Positions 4,558 to 24,674 of a DNA stretch of 32,461 bases are shown here, piece by piece. The stretch is from Anaerolineae bacterium (GTDB lineage: Bacteria > Chloroflexota > Anaerolineae > DRVO01). Each line of letters opens with the position of its first letter. Position 1 is the stretch's first letter. Where the stretch lies: NCBI GenBank assembly GCA_012719195.1, contig JAAYAV010000176.1, positions 1-32,461 of the forward strand, given 5' to 3'. The position numbers were made by a program, and so were the translations under genes. The notes under the pieces are model-generated. The model was not told the origin of the DNA and made no database searches. It worked only from the letters and a program-made list of their open reading frames with translations.

Positions 4558-5625
4558 ATGAACGACCGCGAGCGCTTCGTCCGCACGATGCACTACCAGG
4601 ACGTAGACCGCATCCCGTTCTGGGACTTTGGTTTCTGGACGGAGACTGTGGACGTGTGGTACGGGCAGGGGCTGCCGCGCGACGTTTGGCTCAACACGTA
4701 CTTCGGCATGGACCGGCAGTACGAGCACTTCCCCACAAACCTGGGGATGATGCCTTCCTTTGACGTGGTGGTGTTGGAGGATCGGGGCGACAGCGAGGTG
4801 GTGATAGACAGCGCCGGCGTGAAGCTGGAACGGCGCAAGGACGGTAGCTCCATCCCCCACTTCCTCGAGTTCCCGGTGCGGGATCGCGCCTCGTGGGAGG
4901 AGATGAAGAAGCGCTACGACCCGACCTCTCCCCGCCGGCAACCGGAGTACTTCCAGGACGCCGTGCGCACCCGCCAGGACCGCGACTATCCCCTGGGGAT
5001 CAACTGCGGGTCCCTCTACGGCTGGTGCCGCAACCTTATGGGCGTGGAGAACCTCAGTCTGGCGGTGTACGACGACCCGGGCCTGGTGCGGGACATGATG
5101 CGCCACTTCGCGGACCTGGCCATTCACTGCATCACCCCGGTGCTGGAGGCGCTGCCGCTGGACTACGCTAGCTTCTGGGAGGACATGGCCTACAACACCG
5201 GGCCGCTGCTCTCGCCCAAGCTCTTCCGCGAGATGATGATACCGGAGTACCGCCGCATCACTGATGTGTTGCATCGCTACGGCGTGGACGTGGTCTACGT
5301 GGACTGCGACGGGCGTATCGACCAACTGCTTCCGCTGTGGCTGGAAGCAGGAGTGAACTGCATGTTCCCCTGGGAGGCGCGCTGCAATGACGACCCCTGG
5401 GAGGTGCGGCAGCGAGTCGGTCGTGATCTGCTGGTCATCGGCGGCATCGACAAAATGGCGCTCATCGCCGGCAAGGAGGCCATCGACGCCGAGGTGGCTC
5501 GCCGCAAGCCACTCATGGACGACGGCGGCTACATCCCCACCGTCGACCACCGGGTACCCCCCGACGTAACCCTGGACAACTACCGCTACTACCTCGATGT
5601 GTTGCGCAAGGCAGTGGAGCGGTAG
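4558..5625 (+). CDS. Uroporphyrinogen decarboxylase (URO-D) superfamily protein, not HemE
   Basis: MNDRERFVRTMHYQDVDRIPFWDFGFW... and C-terminal GGIDK...GGYIPTVDHRVPPDVTLDNYRYYL as in URO-D/MtaA-like proteins; lacks the N-terminal HemE RQAGR signature. Confidence 0.85.
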   Translation: MNDRERFVRTMHYQDVDRIPFWDFGFWTETVDVWYGQGLPRDVWLNTYFGMDRQYEHFPTNLGMMPSFDVVVLEDRGDSEVVIDSAGVKLERRKDGSSIPHFLEFPVRDRASWEEMKKRYDPTSPRRQPEYFQDAVRTRQDRDYPLGINCGSLYGWCRNLMGVENLSLAVYDDPGLVRDMMRHFADLAIHCITPVLEALPLDYASFWEDMAYNTGPLLSPKLFREMMIPEYRRITDVLHRYGVDVVYVDCDGRIDQLLPLWLEAGVNCMFPWEARCNDDPWEVRQRVGRDLLVIGGIDKMALIAGKEAIDAEVARRKPLMDDGGYIPTVDHRVPPDVTLDNYRYYLDVLRKAVER

Positions 5626-12627: not shown

Positions 12628-13476
12628 TCACGGCACCAAGTCCTCGAGCGCCGACCTGACACCCTCCAGGAAGGAACCGAACTGGTCCACTCTAGTCTGC
12701 ACCGCTTCCACATCGCTCTGGATAGTGTCCAGCGACGCCTGCAGTTCCTCGACCTGGGTGGAGGCATCTTCCAGCGCCTGGACGCGGCGGTCCGTCGCCG
12801 CAAGGCTGCTTTCGAACGCGGTGGTTGCCGCTTCTAGGTGCTCGACCCGAGCGCCGAGCGCGGCGGTCTCGGCCTCCATGGTGGCCAGCGGCTGCACCAC
12901 CGCGCGCTCCCACTCCTGGCGCGGGACATAGTAGAGCCCCTGGTTGAGGGTGTATAGGAGCGACAGCGTGAGCAGCGTCCCCAGCAGCGCCCCCGATCCG
13001 ACCAACAGGGCGGCGCGCCCGCGGTCGAGAGCGGTGGCGGCTTCGTCTGGCGCGGGGGAGTCTGTGACCAGGGCGGTTTCGGCCTCGCCGAAGAGCACCG
13101 CCGGGTTCACTCCGCCATAGCTGCGCGGCCAGTTCTCATCGGCACTAAACGCAGTTGGCCGCTCCCCCGGACCAGCCTCGCTAGGAGCGGGAGCGGCACC
13201 GCTTGTGCCCCCTTCCGGGGGCGACTCCGCTTCCGGCGCCGGCGGCGACTCACCGGGCGGGACGCAGTCCGGCCCCTCCACCGACAGATGGCCGCGAAGT
13301 CGCGCGAGCAGGGCGGCGGTCATGCCGGGGACGGCGGCGAGGTCGTCGACAGCCGCCAATGGTTGGCATAACCGGTAGTCGAGGATGCGGCGCGCCAGAG
13401 CCGGTCCCACTCCCGGCAGAGCGCACAACTCCTCGAATGTGGCTGTTGGCAGGTGCAACTGCCCGCCGGCCGCCAT
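12628..13476 (-). CDS. Helix-hairpin-helix (ComEA-like) protein with single TM and C-terminal coiled coil
   Basis: LHLPTATFEELCALPGVGPALARRILDYR...LAAVPGMTAALLARLRGHL (tandem HhH), TM ALLVGSGALLGTLLTLSLLYTL, heptad-rich C-terminus. ATG 13476 preceded by GGGAGGG. Confidence 0.82.
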   Translation of the reverse strand: MAAGGQLHLPTATFEELCALPGVGPALARRILDYRLCQPLAAVDDLAAVPGMTAALLARLRGHLSVEGPDCVPPGESPPAPEAESPPEGGTSGAAPAPSEAGPGERPTAFSADENWPRSYGGVNPAVLFGEAETALVTDSPAPDEAATALDRGRAALLVGSGALLGTLLTLSLLYTLNQGLYYVPRQEWERAVVQPLATMEAETAALGARVEHLEAATTAFESSLAATDRRVQALEDASTQVEELQASLDTIQSDVEAVQTRVDQFGSFLEGVRSALEDLVP

Positions 13477-13601
13477 GATCCCTCCCGTGTGACAGCGCCG
13501 CACAACCCTCGGTTAGCGCTGGAAGGCGCAGGACTAGATGGAAAGTATAGCATTGCCGCCAGGTCGCGGCCAGGTGTGTCAGGAGGAACGGCTGCGCCTG
13601 C

Positions 13602-15500
13602 CTACCCTGTGCTCACCACCATCGGCAGGTATAGGGCGGCGCTGGAGTCAGGGTCGGTGTGCTGCTGCGAGGCGGCTACGTCAACGGTACCGGACCAGGT
13701 GGCGGGAAGCGTCCAGGGGTCGGCGGTGCCGGCGCGGACCTCCAGGGTGTGGCTGCCGGGCACCAGGCCCTCGAGGGTGTAGGAGAAGCGGCCGGAGTCG
13801 TCCTCGTCGCCGGGGGTGGGCAGGGGGCGCCAGGCCGCCGAGTCCACGCGAACCTCCAGCGTTGCCAGGGGGCCGGTCCCATCTTCGACCAAGACTCGAC
13901 CGAAGACGGTGACCGGTCCGTCCTCCGCAGTCTCGACTTCAGCTTCGATGGTGACAGCGCTTACGGGAGGACTTCCTTCCTGGATGGTCAGGGTGTCTTG
14001 GGCCGAGCCGGCCGTGCCCCGATCGTTGGTGAACCTTACCTCGATGAGCCACTCCCCGACGGGTGCTGCTGGAAGGGTGAGCTCGAAGAGCTCGCCGGTG
14101 CCGTCGCAGGCGCCATCGCCGCAGAGGAGCGCGAACCACGGTCCCTGGTTTACCCGGTAGTGGCCGCGGGCGATGTGGTTGATGGTGATGGGCGCGCGTG
14201 TCGGGCTGGGGTAGGGTATGTCGGTCGCACTGCCAATCAGAGTGACCCCGTCGCCATCGCTGGTTACGGAGAGCTCCACCGCGACCTCGGTGTCGACCGG
14301 GTCGAGCAGGCCGTCTCCGTCTGAGTCTCGCCAGCCGACCTGAGCTGCCGAACAAGGGCAGAGCTGGCCCAGGCGGTAAGGCTGCAGGCCGCCGCGCATG
14401 ATGCAGCCCACGTCAGTCTGGCCGTCGGCCTCGGCGTTGTAGGTGGGTACCCCCAGATAGCCGGAGATGTTGGCCGAGGTGACCCCGGAGGCGGCGTACT
14501 CATCCATGGCGCCGAAGATGTGTCCCATCTCGTGCGCGACTACAGCCGCCATGTTCTCGGGGCCGTAACCGTTGTTGCCGTACGTCACCACCATGTAGGG
14601 GCCGTGGATGTAGCTGTAGGCGAAGTAGCCGTCTTCGAAGCGATTGTCGGCGTCGTTGAGGCTGTCGACCACGTAGATGGTGAAGGCCCAGTCCGCCTGG
14701 CGGGCGTCGCGAACGGCGCGGTTCAGCAGCCGCGTGGCCGTCAGGTAGGACGAGTGGCGGAAGCCCAACTGCTGCGTGGCTTCAGAGATCCAGAGCCGAT
14801 CCTCGCTGTGGGGTCGCGAGATGGGCTCGTAGGAGACGGGGAGCGGGCGGGTGAAGTGGTCTTGGTAGACGAACTCGAGCGGGGCCTGCGGCTGTCGTGC
14901 CTGCCACCAACTGGTAGCGCGCACCACTTCCGTGAACACGTGCTGCTGTCGCTCCGGGCTCCAGTCCTCGGCGTTGGCGTCGACGGCGCCGCTGCTGTCC
15001 ACCAACACTAAGCTCACCGCCACTTTGCCGATCATGAACTCGCTCTGCTGGTAGAGCGAGGGGTCGAGCGCCTGGCCGCCCAGTTCGGGCTGGTCGGTCG
15101 CCAGGAGCACGTCGTTCTCAGGGGGCTGGATGTCCACGACATCGTAGTCTACGGGGGCGCCGAGCGCCTCCCAGACGGCAACCAGGCTTTGGGACTCGGG
15201 CGACAACGAATCGCGGATGCCGGCGGGGACCGCGTCGGCGGTGACGTAGTTGGCCCTGCCCTCCTGCACCTGGAGCACGGCCGCGGCGGGGTCGATCTCT
15301 GCAATGAGCCCCAGCCCGGGGAAGGCATGGAGCACGCGACCCCCCGCCGTCTGCAGGGCGGTGTACAGATCCTCATAGCGGCCATCGGCGGTCAGCAAGA
15401 GGTGTGCTGGAGAGGAAGCGGCGGCATGGACGGGCGCCAGGGCAGTGAAGGTGATGATCAGTGCCACGAGAATGGCGGCCCTGGAAACTGGATGCCGCAT
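13602..15500 (-). CDS. Secreted metzincin-like zinc metalloprotease with C-terminal beta-type domains
   Basis: Signal peptide MRHPVSRAAILVALIITFTALAPVHAAA; AAVVAHEMGHIFGAMDEY (HExxHxxGxxD) followed by GCIMRGG (possible Met-turn); Ca-binding-like DSDGDGLLDPVD. Confidence 0.75.
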   Translation of the reverse strand: MRHPVSRAAILVALIITFTALAPVHAAASSPAHLLLTADGRYEDLYTALQTAGGRVLHAFPGLGLIAEIDPAAAVLQVQEGRANYVTADAVPAGIRDSLSPESQSLVAVWEALGAPVDYDVVDIQPPENDVLLATDQPELGGQALDPSLYQQSEFMIGKVAVSLVLVDSSGAVDANAEDWSPERQQHVFTEVVRATSWWQARQPQAPLEFVYQDHFTRPLPVSYEPISRPHSEDRLWISEATQQLGFRHSSYLTATRLLNRAVRDARQADWAFTIYVVDSLNDADNRFEDGYFAYSYIHGPYMVVTYGNNGYGPENMAAVVAHEMGHIFGAMDEYAASGVTSANISGYLGVPTYNAEADGQTDVGCIMRGGLQPYRLGQLCPCSAAQVGWRDSDGDGLLDPVDTEVAVELSVTSDGDGVTLIGSATDIPYPSPTRAPITINHIARGHYRVNQGPWFALLCGDGACDGTGELFELTLPAAPVGEWLIEVRFTNDRGTAGSAQDTLTIQEGSPPVSAVTIEAEVETAEDGPVTVFGRVLVEDGTGPLATLEVRVDSAAWRPLPTPGDEDDSGRFSYTLEGLVPGSHTLEVRAGTADPWTLPATWSGTVDVAASQQHTDPDSSAALYLPMVVSTG

Positions 15501-15710: not shown

Positions 15711-16883
15711 GTGACGGTACTGGCCGACGACCTGACGGGAGCGCTGGACACGGCCGTCCAGTTCGCCCGCGAGGACTCGCCGGTGACCGTTCTGTTGCGG
15801 CCGCACGAGGACGACGCCCGCGTGGTCGTGGCAGACACGGAGAGCCGCGGACTGAGCCCGGCAGCGGCCACCCGTTCCCTCCAGGGCTGGATCCCGCTTG
15901 CCCGGGGCCTGGTCTACAAGAAGATGGACTCCACTCTCCGCGGACCGTTCGCCGCCGAGGCGGAAGCGCTCGGCCGGGCGCTCGGGAAGCGAGGCGTCCT
16001 CGTAGCGCCGGCGTTCCCGCGGGCCGGGCGGACCGTGCGGCAGGGAGTGCTTCACGTGCACGGCATACCGGTTCACGAGACAGAAGCCGCCGCCGATCCT
16101 GGCTGCCCCATCACCGACAGCCGCGTGCGTGAGGCGGTGCGGCGGTACGTGCACAGCTGCTGTCACACCATCGGCCTCCCCACCGTTCGGGAGGGCGTGC
16201 AGGCGGTCACCTCAGCACTCGACGCGCTGAGCGGGTTCGCGGTCGCTGACGCCGAGACCGACGCTGACCTGGCCGTCCTCGCCAAAGCGCTAGTTGAGCG
16301 ATCCGACTGGCTGCCCTGCGGGTCCGCGGGACTAGCGGAGGCCCTGGCCGGCCGACTCGGCTTCGCCCGCTCGACTACTTCCATGGCGATTCCTCGACCG
16401 GCGGTGCTGGTGGTGGGCAGCGCTCATCCTGCCAGTCGCCGGCAGCTGGCCCGTGTCGCGGAGGCGCTCGACCTTGCGCCGGTTGTCGTGGGAGGCGAGC
16501 CCGAGGCAGAGCTTCTGGAGCGGGCCGACCGCAACTACCACCGCACGGGGGTTGCCCTGCTGGCACTGCCGGAGGGGCGCCTGGCGACCGCGGCGGCTGA
16601 GAGCGCGCGGACGGCATTGGCCCGCCTGGGGGCGGAACTGGTGGACAGGTGGCGGGCCGAGACCCTTTATGCCACCGGGGGAGAGACGCTGCTGGCGGTG
16701 CTGGAGGCGTTGGACGTGGCCGCTCTGCGGCCGCTCGCGGAGGTGGCTGCGGGCGTGGTGATCTCCGAGGCGCGGCCGGCCTCGGGCCGGGGACTGGCGG
16801 TCGTCAGCAAGGCCGGAGGTTTCGGCGACGACGACCTCCTGGTACGCTTGTTCGCCACCCTACCCGTGAACGGAACCGGTTAG
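15711..16883 (+). CDS. Four-carbon acid sugar kinase family protein (DUF1537)
   Basis: VTVLADDLTGALDTAVQFAR, VYKKMDSTLRGPFAAEAEALG, PAFPRAGRTVRQGVLHVHGIPVHETE, LPCGSAGLAEALA. Probable GTG start at 15711. Confidence 0.9.
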   Translation: MTVLADDLTGALDTAVQFAREDSPVTVLLRPHEDDARVVVADTESRGLSPAAATRSLQGWIPLARGLVYKKMDSTLRGPFAAEAEALGRALGKRGVLVAPAFPRAGRTVRQGVLHVHGIPVHETEAAADPGCPITDSRVREAVRRYVHSCCHTIGLPTVREGVQAVTSALDALSGFAVADAETDADLAVLAKALVERSDWLPCGSAGLAEALAGRLGFARSTTSMAIPRPAVLVVGSAHPASRRQLARVAEALDLAPVVVGGEPEAELLERADRNYHRTGVALLALPEGRLATAAAESARTALARLGAELVDRWRAETLYATGGETLLAVLEALDVAALRPLAEVAAGVVISEARPASGRGLAVVSKAGGFGDDDLLVRLFATLPVNGTG

Positions 16884-16896
16884 GAGAGGAGAGGCG

Positions 16897-17925
16897 ATGG
16901 TGCGACCAACGCTGTTTGTCACCGCGGGAGACCCAGCCGGAGTGGGGCCCGAGGTGGTCTGCAAGGCACTGCAACGGCTGAGAGACCAGGCACCGGCGCG
17001 ACTGGTGACGGTGGGGACGCGCGCCGTTATGGAGCGCGCGGCCCGATGGACGGCGACGACCATCGACTGGCGCGACTACGACCCCGCCGCCGACCCGGTC
17101 TGTGGCGGCATGGGCGACGCTGAGCTGCTGGACGTCCCTGTGCCGGGCGTCGAGTCGAGGCCGCCAGGTCAGCTCGACGTCCTCTGTGGCGAGGCGGCCT
17201 ATCGCTACATCGAGGCAGCGGTCGACCGCTGCCGCAGGGGTGAGGGGGCCGGCGTGGTCACCGCGCCCATCAACAAGGCGGCGGTGAATGCGGCCGGCTA
17301 CCCCTTCGCCGGGCACACCGAGATACTGGCGCACCTGCTGGGCGCGCAGGGGGTAGCCATGCTCCTCGCGACGCCGCGGCTTCGGGTGGCGCACGTCAGC
17401 ACGCATTGTTCCCTGGCAACGGCGATCGAGCGGGTGCGGCCCGAGCGCATCGTCCGTGTGGCCCGACTGCTGGCCGAAGCCCTGCGCCGGCTCGGCGTGG
17501 ACGAGCCCCACATCGCAGTGGCCGGCCTCAACCCACACGCCGGCGAGGGCGGCCTCTTCGGCGTAGACGAGCAGCAGTTCATCGTGCCGGCAGTGGAGGC
17601 CTTGAGGGCGGAGGGGCTGGCAGTGTCCGGCCCGGAGCCGCCCGACACTGTCTTTCGGCGTGCCTACGGGGGGCAGTTCGATGGAGTGGTGGCCATGTAC
17701 CATGATCAGGGCCACATCGCCGTCAAGATGCTCGGTTTCAGCGAGGGGGTGAACGTGACGCTGGGGCTTCCCATCGTGCGAACCTCGGTTGACCACGGCA
17801 CGGCCTTCGATATTGCCGGCAGCGGGCGAGCGGACGAGGGCAGCCTCTTGGCGGCCATAGATATGGCGGCGCGCTTGGTGCGGCCGCATACAGGACAAGA
17901 ACGCAGTAGCGAGGAGAGTCGCTAG
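16897..17925 (+). CDS. pdxA: 4-hydroxythreonine-4-phosphate dehydrogenase family (PdxA/PdxA2-type)
   Basis: LFVTAGDPAGVGPEVVCKAL, TAPINKAAVNAAGYPFAGHTEILAHLLG, ALNPHAGE-like AGLNPHAGEGGLFG, MYHDQGHIAVKMLGF, GLPIVRTSVDHGTAFDIAG. Context suggests a PdxA2 role in acid-sugar catabolism. Confidence 0.93.
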   Translation: MVRPTLFVTAGDPAGVGPEVVCKALQRLRDQAPARLVTVGTRAVMERAARWTATTIDWRDYDPAADPVCGGMGDAELLDVPVPGVESRPPGQLDVLCGEAAYRYIEAAVDRCRRGEGAGVVTAPINKAAVNAAGYPFAGHTEILAHLLGAQGVAMLLATPRLRVAHVSTHCSLATAIERVRPERIVRVARLLAEALRRLGVDEPHIAVAGLNPHAGEGGLFGVDEQQFIVPAVEALRAEGLAVSGPEPPDTVFRRAYGGQFDGVVAMYHDQGHIAVKMLGFSEGVNVTLGLPIVRTSVDHGTAFDIAGSGRADEGSLLAAIDMAARLVRPHTGQERSSEESR

Positions 17926-19059
17926 ATGGTAGGGCAGGTGCCTTGGAGGAACGACCTGGCCGGATGGCTCGAGCGGTTCTGGGACGAGAACTCGAAGTGC
18001 TGGGAGCCATTCAGCACCGACAAGCCCCGCGTACCCGTCTCGGTGGGTCTGAACGAGGACTGGGTGAAGTTCGAGGCGGGCGTCACCGACCACCGGCGTT
18101 TCCACACCGACTTCGAGTACCAGCAGGCCATGCGGGCCCGGGCGGCCGAGGTGGCTAAGCGGGAGCTGGGTGTGACTCTGGGGCCGGCCATCAACCTGGG
18201 TTCGGTGACGAACACCTCCATCTACGGGGGTGAGGTGGTCTACCCCGACAACGCCGGTCCCTGGCTCTTGGAGAGTATTGAGGACCCGGTCCACGATGTG
18301 CCCGCGCTCATCCGGCGCCTGGGCAGGCAGGACATCCTCAAGGCGGGCGTCAACCCCATCGTCCTGGAGTGGCGACAGCGCATTCTGGAGGAGTACGGGG
18401 TCGACATAAAGCTGGGGACGGGCTGCCACGGCTTGGCCACCCTGGGGTCCATCATCTGTGGCACCACCAACTTCATCTACTGGCTATACGACTATCCCGA
18501 CCAGATGGATGCCCTGATGCAGCTCTTCTACGAGACCAACCTGGAGTATATGGTCCGCCTCCGTGAGGTGACCGGGGCTTCCATGGAGGGCATGGGTATG
18601 GGCAACGACAACGTGGCCTTCCTTACTCCCACCCTCTACCGCAAGTTCTGCTTGGAGCGTGAGCGTGCCTGGTACGACCACTTCAGCTCGCCCGGCGACG
18701 GTCGACGCAACTTCCACAGCGACAGCGAGAACTCCCACATGCTGGACGTGCTGGCCGAACTCGATCTGAGCCACGTCAATCTGGGTCCGACGGTGGATCC
18801 GCAGTTGATTCGCGCCAAGATGCCCAAGGCGGTCATTCAGGGCCAGGTACCGCCTTTCCTGCTGCGCGAGGGTACGCCGGAGCAGGTCCTGGCGCGCTGC
18901 CGCGAAGACATCAACAAGGTAGCCGGAGAAGGCGGCCTAGTGCTGGACTCGGCAGGCAGCATCAACGACGGCACCCCGCACGAAAACGTGCGCGCCATGA
19001 TGCTGGCAGCCGAGCTCTACGGTCGCTACAAGGACGGCAAGCACGTGGTTGTGGAGTAG
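17926..19059 (+). CDS. URO-D superfamily protein (non-HemE)
   Basis: ATG directly abuts the pdxA stop; overall URO-D/methyltransferase-like pattern (GPAINLGSVTNTSIYGGEVVYPDN..., LAELDLSHVNLGPTVDPQLIRAKMPKAVIQGQVPP). Confidence 0.75.
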   Translation: MVGQVPWRNDLAGWLERFWDENSKCWEPFSTDKPRVPVSVGLNEDWVKFEAGVTDHRRFHTDFEYQQAMRARAAEVAKRELGVTLGPAINLGSVTNTSIYGGEVVYPDNAGPWLLESIEDPVHDVPALIRRLGRQDILKAGVNPIVLEWRQRILEEYGVDIKLGTGCHGLATLGSIICGTTNFIYWLYDYPDQMDALMQLFYETNLEYMVRLREVTGASMEGMGMGNDNVAFLTPTLYRKFCLERERAWYDHFSSPGDGRRNFHSDSENSHMLDVLAELDLSHVNLGPTVDPQLIRAKMPKAVIQGQVPPFLLREGTPEQVLARCREDINKVAGEGGLVLDSAGSINDGTPHENVRAMMLAAELYGRYKDGKHVVVE

Positions 19060-19196: not shown

Positions 19197-19224
19197 TTTG
19201 CAGCCGAGTCGATATGACTATAAT
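19197..19224 (+). promoter_or_regulatory. Putative sigma-70 promoter of hydrogenase operon
   Basis: TTTGCA-N16-TATAAT, about 50 bp upstream of the small-subunit ATG. Confidence 0.65.
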
Positions 19225-22987: not shown

Positions 22988-23529
22988 CCGGGGCCGGGGA
23001 CACTCTCGTACTCGGGATCGGCAACGTGCTCCTGGCCGACGAGGGGGTCGGCGTCCACGTGGCGACACTGCTCGAGGGCCGGCTGGCGGGCGTACCGGGG
23101 CTGTCGGTGCTGGACGGTGGCACCCTGGGGCTGGAACTGCTGGGGCCCATCGAGGACGCCCAGCAGCTGATCGTTGTAGACTGCATGAGGGCAGGCCGGG
23201 CCGCCGGGTCGGTTACGGTGCTCCGCGACCGCGAGGCCACCGAGTGGACCACCGGCCGGGTAACGGCGCACGACCTCGGTCTGCCCAGCGTCTTCGCTCT
23301 GGCACAGCTACGCGGTTGGCAGCCCCGGCGCGTGGCAGTGGTGGGGGTGGAGCCGGATCGCCTCGAGCCGAGCCTGTCGCTGAGTCCGCCGGTGGAGCGC
23401 GGGGCTCTAGAGGCGGCGGAGCAAGTGATGGACCTGCTTCGCCAGTGGGAGGTGCTCTCGCCGAAACCGGCCGATAGGCTCAGGAATGGGCCGGCAACAC
23501 CAGCTGCGCCACCCCTTGGCGACCGCTGA
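22984..23529 (+). CDS. hyaD: Hydrogenase maturation endopeptidase (HyaD/HupD family)
   Basis: LVLGIGNVLLADEGVGVHVA, LDGGTLGLELLGPIEDAQQLIVVDCM, VTAHDLGLPSVFALAQL; TTG start overlaps the hyaC stop. Confidence 0.92.
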   Translation: MTGAGDTLVLGIGNVLLADEGVGVHVATLLEGRLAGVPGLSVLDGGTLGLELLGPIEDAQQLIVVDCMRAGRAAGSVTVLRDREATEWTTGRVTAHDLGLPSVFALAQLRGWQPRRVAVVGVEPDRLEPSLSLSPPVERGALEAAEQVMDLLRQWEVLSPKPADRLRNGPATPAAPPLGDR

Positions 23530-24640
23530 TCAGCCAATTCCCGTCCGCGGCGGCCAGCTGCCCTACGGTCTCCTTGGTCAGGCCAGCGGCGAGCTCTCCC
23601 TTGAACGTGCGCAGTAGCAGCACCGGCACCGGGAAGTAGTCCACCGCCTGCTCGATGGGGGTGTGGAAGGGCCAGTGCCGGTCCTCGAGGAAGCGGCGGT
23701 AGTTCACGTCGCCCTTGGATATGACCAGACAGGAGTCGGACAGGCGCGCTTCCAGCTCCGCGGGAAGGTGCCGAAAGTGCCCCGGTCCGCACCAGTAGGG
23801 ATGGTCGCGTACCACCAGGCGGCCGTCCGACACTGCCTCGCTCAGCCGCTGCCCCATCTCGCTCACAGCGCCACTGGGCGCCGCCCGCAGGAAGGCCAAG
23901 GAATCGGCGACCTCGCGCGCGGTGGCGTCGGACACGAAGAACGGGTGTGGCTTCACCTCGAGCCCCACCTGCTCGATTCCACCGGTCAGCAGCCAGTCGA
24001 CTAGCTGCAAGTCGCCGAGGAGCTCCGGCCCGGAGTTGTCGCATAGCACCACAACCGTTGACCGGCCAGAGCACTGCACGAGGGTGAAGGCGCGGGCGCA
24101 GTCGTCCACCACGGGAGCGAGGTCTTCCAGGCGATGGTGCTCGTCGGCGTGACGCTCGGCGACGGCCAAGTTGCTTAGGTCGATGCGGTTGCCCCAGAGG
24201 CTGCGCCGGGCGAGGACCGCGAAGGCTTCGCCACTGGGCAGGCAGGCCACCCGTTCGGCCGTGTCCGCCAGGGCGGGCAGGAGGGCCGTACAGCGGGTGA
24301 GGAGGTCGGCCTTCTGGGTGGCGAAGGGGTCGGGATGGTCGCCGCGATAGTAGCCCACCGCCGAGAGCAGGCGCACGTAGAAGTACGACTCGGCGAAGTA
24401 CCAGGGCACCTCAAGCCAGGTACGGCCTTCCCATTGCCGGTACTCCGCCTCCCAGCACTCTCGCAGGGGGGCATCGTCGGGGGGAGGCGCGATGGGCAGC
24501 TGCTCAATCTCCCGCGTCAGCGCCTCTAGGGCGGGCCGGATCACCGAGGATTTCGGCGAGCGGTCGATGACCTCAGCGATGATGGCGGGCTTGCGCTCGC
24601 AGATGGTAGCCCGGGCGAAGGACCCGGGCTCGGAAGTCAT
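23480..24640 (-). CDS. DUF89 / ARMT1-like damage-control phosphatase family protein
   Basis: WLEVPWYFAESYFYVRLLSAVGYYRGDHPDPFATQKADLL and VVVLCDNSGPELLGDLQLVDWLL. ATG at 24640 or TTG at 24670; start uncertain. Confidence 0.82.
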   Translation of the reverse strand: MTSEPGSFARATICERKPAIIAEVIDRSPKSSVIRPALEALTREIEQLPIAPPPDDAPLRECWEAEYRQWEGRTWLEVPWYFAESYFYVRLLSAVGYYRGDHPDPFATQKADLLTRCTALLPALADTAERVACLPSGEAFAVLARRSLWGNRIDLSNLAVAERHADEHHRLEDLAPVVDDCARAFTLVQCSGRSTVVVLCDNSGPELLGDLQLVDWLLTGGIEQVGLEVKPHPFFVSDATAREVADSLAFLRAAPSGAVSEMGQRLSEAVSDGRLVVRDHPYWCGPGHFRHLPAELEARLSDSCLVISKGDVNYRRFLEDRHWPFHTPIEQAVDYFPVPVLLLRTFKGELAAGLTKETVGQLAAADGNWLISGRQGVAQLVLPAHS

Positions 24641-24674
24641 TATCGGTGGTGGGAGGAGGTGTCGCGCCAACGGG

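Follow-up and report, generated by a model that had tools for sequence, protein, structure and literature searches.

The closest described system to the locus considered here is the pair formed by a DtnK or DenK kinase and a PdxA2 dehydrogenase, which Zhang et al. are said to have assigned in 2016 (PNAS) to the use of D-threonate and D-erythronate, a route that reportedly needs neither a first dehydrogenase nor an aldolase. In KEGG descriptions, as given in one study, pdxA2 denotes a 4-phospho-D-threonate/erythronate dehydrogenase and dtnK/denK a D-threonate/erythronate kinase (PMC13185595). The window analysed here, that is, the whole stretch of 32,461 nucleotides of contig JAAYAV010000176.1 from an Anaerolineae bacterium (assembly GCA_012719195.1), carries adjacent genes of these two families, a DUF1537 kinase and a PdxA-family dehydrogenase, followed directly by a third gene that encodes a protein of the URO-D superfamily (Table 1). 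A first-pass annotation had proposed this trio as a new functional context for the URO-D clade. Comparison across genomes indicates instead that the DUF1537-PdxA pair is an ordinary module found throughout the class, and that the URO-D gene is a genus-level addition to it and not a new conserved pathway.

A DUF1537 match occurs in 35 of the 298 genomes of the class sample, which was drawn via contigs shared with records named Anaerolineae and Chloroflexota, and at the 20 DUF1537 loci inspected outside the window PdxA was adjacent or within about 1.3 kb in 15 cases. None of these 20 loci has an intact URO-D gene beside the DUF1537-PdxA pair; at locus L090 a URO-D of unrelated type lies about 4.3 kb from the DUF1537 locus. 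The neighbourhoods of the clade to which the window protein belongs, labelled HSD, were covered at 100 further loci (86 after de-duplication; 1.29 Mb), and no DUF1537 or PdxA match was present at any of them. Clade relatives were recovered by an alignment-based contig scan, a single-sequence scan having given no relative. The neighbourhood survey, for which the deciding outcome had been set beforehand, thus found the adjacency not conserved outside the genus and the clade in the company of other genes, and the proposed new context for the URO-D clade is mostly unsupported; no paper tying URO-D to DUF1537 or PdxA was found in the open-licence literature. Five loci from Clostridia (L135, L136, L139, L140 and L146) carry an HSD-clade URO-D gene 3' of the same gene, on the same strand, whose product of about 815 aa is tRNA-ligase-like by its start only, no family search having been made. 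This shared arrangement suggests that HSD-clade contexts are kept within lineages and not between them.

The ATG of the URO-D gene (17926) lies immediately 3' of the pdxA stop codon (17923-17925), as the first-pass annotation had pointed out, and this tight coupling is older than one genome. The family sample comprises three genomes, of which G025 is the only one of the same genus, and its locus L082 carries ffh, an HHH protein, a peptidase-like protein, DUF1537 and pdxA in the same order as the window. That this genome simply has no URO-D at this site was overturned by a translated search, which found a URO-D remnant at 6003-6371 of L082 (minus strand), starting 42 bases after pdxA. The remnant matches residues 240-368 of the URO-D protein with 42% identity (E 2e-14 to 2e-16; DNA identity 67-70%), carries stop codons and a frame change, and leaves no space for the N-terminal part of about 240 codons; DUF1537 and pdxA are still open in G025. 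A formate-dehydrogenase-like gene, so named by sequence reading with no family search, lies 3' of the remnant. In the third family genome the contig ends inside pdxA, and that genome gave no match to the window URO-D at 1e-20. A remnant at this very spot in the sister species is most simply explained if the genus ancestor already had the trio and URO-D was then lost in G025, and its decay beside an intact pair indicates that the pair does not need it.

We favour, with a probability of about 0.6, a reading in which a two-step acid-sugar module is accompanied by an accessory, dispensable and lineage-limited URO-D. As their families suggest, the DUF1537 kinase would phosphorylate a C4 sugar acid at O4, most likely D-threonate or D-erythronate, and PdxA2 would oxidise and decarboxylate the phosphorylated acid to dihydroxyacetone phosphate (DHAP). 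The URO-D gene would have been inserted right behind pdxA before the two sampled members of the genus diverged, staying intact in the window lineage and decaying in the sister species, and its standing as a lineage-limited accessory is highly probable. Several observations weigh against this reading. The tight translational coupling and the intact URO-D frame favour some joint use with the pair, the two-species comparison rests on a single decayed copy, and the immediate neighbours of HSD-clade URO-D genes are very mixed. An association of the genome's URO-D genes with sugar oxidoreductases found no support, Gfo/Idh proteins occurring at 2.4 per 100 kb against 2.1 in control contigs in a test that was informative mainly for this family, several seeds having matched nothing; this figure and the mixed clade neighbours make the sugar link of URO-D weak. 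In addition, the specific NCBIfam equivalog cut-offs for the kinase and the dehydrogenase were missed and the general PdxA model alone was passed, so that the models leave the exact substrate of the pair unfixed.

The best-surviving alternative, a serious one to which we give somewhat less than even odds, is chance accretion, by which one of dozens of URO-D genes ended up behind pdxA with no functional tie to sugar-acid breakdown. The window genome (G000) has 39 PF01208 matches in 2.93 Mb, or roughly 1-1.5% of its genes if about one gene per kb is assumed, and with URO-D so common, finding such a gene next to a given metabolic operon says little by itself. The pseudogene in the sister species and the heterogeneity of the clade neighbourhoods point the same way. 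Chance accretion is harder to reconcile with the tree, in which all 33 other full-length URO-D proteins of the genome that were included fall outside the clade of the window protein, with the intact frame and good ribosome-binding site of the gene, and with a position held since the genus ancestor at least. Composition gives no sign of a recent foreign origin, the GC content at third codon positions (0.86) matching that of the neighbouring genes.

A second alternative concerns the chemistry of the URO-D protein, which matches PF01208 at 2.5e-24. It is not HemE, as already stated in the first-pass annotation, scoring 22.7 bits where 303 are needed; the hemE model was likewise passed by none of five other paralogues scored, the best Pfam match included. 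The mtaA_cmuA subfamily model gives 46.5 bits (cut-off 235). In searches with the sequence and with an AlphaFold2 model (mean pLDDT, the predicted local distance difference test score, of 90), the top match was in both cases MtaA (PDB 4ay7; sequence E 2.8e-6 over residues 135-363), followed by HemE structures, which match the fold at E about 1e-11. The window protein clusters with 86 relatives (support 99) in a tree of 120 proteins, and this clade spans at least seven phyla, namely Chloroflexota, Armatimonadota, Bacillota, Verrucomicrobiota, Planctomycetota, Spirochaetota and Lentisphaerota. The nearest relative (49% identity, in G043) adjoins a BNR-repeat protein and a Mur ligase-alanine racemase fusion. 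Invariant in all 87 members are W113, G169, T172, D228, R261, H264, D266, H271, N285, P288, R296, G306, G344 and S345; residue 227, next to D228, is Asn in the window protein and Asp in the other 86. H264-S265-D266 aligns with the His-x-Cys of MtaA and G344 with its later Cys, positions that we take to be the zinc ligands of MtaA, so that of this His/Cys/Cys site the His is retained, one Cys is replaced by Asp and the other by Gly; no Cys is conserved across the clade. Judged by these sequences, the HSD clade, widespread and as yet uncharacterised, is a part of the URO-D superfamily that lacks a cysteine zinc site.

MtaA being a methylcobalamin:coenzyme M methyltransferase, the protein might be thought a corrinoid-dependent demethylase that acts on an O-methylated sugar acid, delivers the substrate of the kinase and draws on a single shared housekeeping corrinoid protein whose gene lies elsewhere, the more so as O-demethylases belong to the URO-D superfamily according to one study (PMC10418091). 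O-demethylation finds no backing from corrinoid genes, and we consider it unlikely. The genome does hold one B12-binding_2 match, truncated where its contig stops, and one fragment matching a RACo-type activase, which count in favour of a shared partner, but both are distant from the URO-D gene, and no corrinoid gene was present at the 100 other HSD-clade loci, where the corrinoid control was positive in the same search. Of three B12-binding_2 matches in the same-genus genome two are short pieces, and the full-length corrinoid protein adjoins an MttB-family methyltransferase instead of URO-D. The absence of the zinc-binding Cys residues also speaks against a demethylase. A dedicated corrinoid partner is unlikely; the fragmentation of the window genome (528 contigs) leaves room for a shared one.

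For the pair itself, the Pfam matches uphold the family calls made from the open reading frames. The kinase matches PF07005 (6.2e-52) and PF17042 (5.2e-19), its SBD_N and NBD_C domains spanning the whole protein, and is 50% identical to the same-genus copy; the best of three kinase models is that of D-threonate kinase (NF047819; 203.7 bits, cut-off 450), the 3-oxo-tetronate kinase model giving 118 bits. The dehydrogenase, 72% identical to its same-genus counterpart, matches PF04166 (2e-106), passes TIGR00557 (372 bits) and misses the cut-off of 583 of the D-threonate 4-phosphate dehydrogenase model PRK03371 (305.7 bits). It is hard to credit that PdxA serves vitamin B6 synthesis with DUF1537 recycling 4-hydroxythreonine, even though TIGR00557 is a B6-type model and phosphorylation of 4-hydroxythreonine by a DUF1537 kinase has been described, as cited in PMC10971088, because no PdxJ match was found in the genome (2.93 Mb, 93% complete) and the 1-deoxy-D-xylulose 5-phosphate-dependent B6 route thus appears absent. 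This absence and the adjoining DUF1537 make PdxA2 the best reading of the dehydrogenase. Family membership, the missing PdxJ and the recurrence of the pair across the class agree with the earlier proposal of an acid-sugar catabolic module, which is very probably what the two genes form. No aldolase or corrinoid protein lies adjacent, as had been noted; the lack of a first dehydrogenase and of an aldolase is, however, no anomaly, because kinase and PdxA2 already make up a complete D-threonate/D-erythronate route.

Within the favoured reading of a two-step module with a dispensable URO-D, a sugar-acid relative is a tentative suggestion for the URO-D substrate. Slightly less likely, though our best guess at its chemistry, the protein might be a corrinoid-independent, possibly metal-assisted enzyme that acts on a sugar-acid-like compound and feeds the module; H264 and D266, perhaps with D228, are candidate metal ligands, with R261 and R296 as possible binding residues for a carboxylate. 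We regard as quite improbable the wider proposal that the Cys-less HSD clade, across many phyla, is a new class of enzymes that convert sugar-acid-like compounds without a corrinoid, and that in this lineage it opens a new way into the D-threonate/erythronate pathway. Taken alone, the operon extends a known module within one lineage only. The clade may matter more, as a widespread URO-D branch without zinc cysteines or corrinoid neighbours, and the intact and decayed copies in two sister species offer a natural comparison.

The three genes form a tight run on one strand, each preceded by a plausible ribosome-binding site as read from the sequence. Downstream lies a [NiFe] hydrogenase operon encoding the small subunit, large subunit, cytochrome b and maturation protease. 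The hydrogenase is unlikely to be a fourth member of the run, as it has a promoter-like site of its own (10 of 12 positions of a sigma-70 match; the sole site found, with 0.2 expected in shuffles), so that the acid-sugar run most likely ends with URO-D.

Table 1. Features of the acid-sugar run and of its downstream border (positions in the window).
Feature	Position	Strand	Basis
DUF1537 kinase (SBD_N + NBD_C), closest to D-threonate kinase DtnK	15711..16883	+	GTG start; PF07005, PF17042
PdxA-family dehydrogenase, read as PdxA2 (4-phospho-D-threonate/erythronate dehydrogenase)	16897..17925	+	PF04166, TIGR00557
GAGGAGA, probable ribosome-binding site of the URO-D gene, within the 3' end of pdxA	17911..17917	+	read from sequence
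URO-D-fold protein, uncharacterised Cys-less 'HSD' clade	17926..19059	+	PF01208, clade conservation, tree, AlphaFold2 model
Sigma-70-like promoter of the downstream [NiFe] hydrogenase operon	19197..19224	+	TTTGCA-16-TATAAT

Elsewhere in the window, a second URO-D gene (4558-5625) is of another type, with Asp-Cys-Asp-Gly replacing the His-x-Cys motif, and relatives of its product (about 37% identity) are encoded near HSD-clade URO-D genes at L047 and L049. An ARMT1-like (DUF89) protein is encoded at 23480-24670 (minus strand), and L047 carries a gene for another member of this family at 13115-14404, at a distance of about 4 kb from an HSD-clade URO-D gene.

Compared with known systems, the window URO-D protein shares its fold with HemE and reaches only those 22.7 bits against the hemE cut-off. 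The fold is also that of MtaA (4ay7), from which it differs by His-Ser-Asp in place of His-x-Cys, by Gly in place of the later Cys and by having no corrinoid partner nearby. The Mlp gene clusters, as treated by Kountz and Balskus (PMC10418091), likewise include URO-D-superfamily proteins outside methanogens whose role is uncertain. The nearest likeness is to the DtnK/DenK-PdxA2 pair, from which the window departs in not reaching the specific NCBIfam equivalog cut-offs and in adding URO-D behind pdxA; the same two families are adjacent here, and they would lead to DHAP without a further enzyme.
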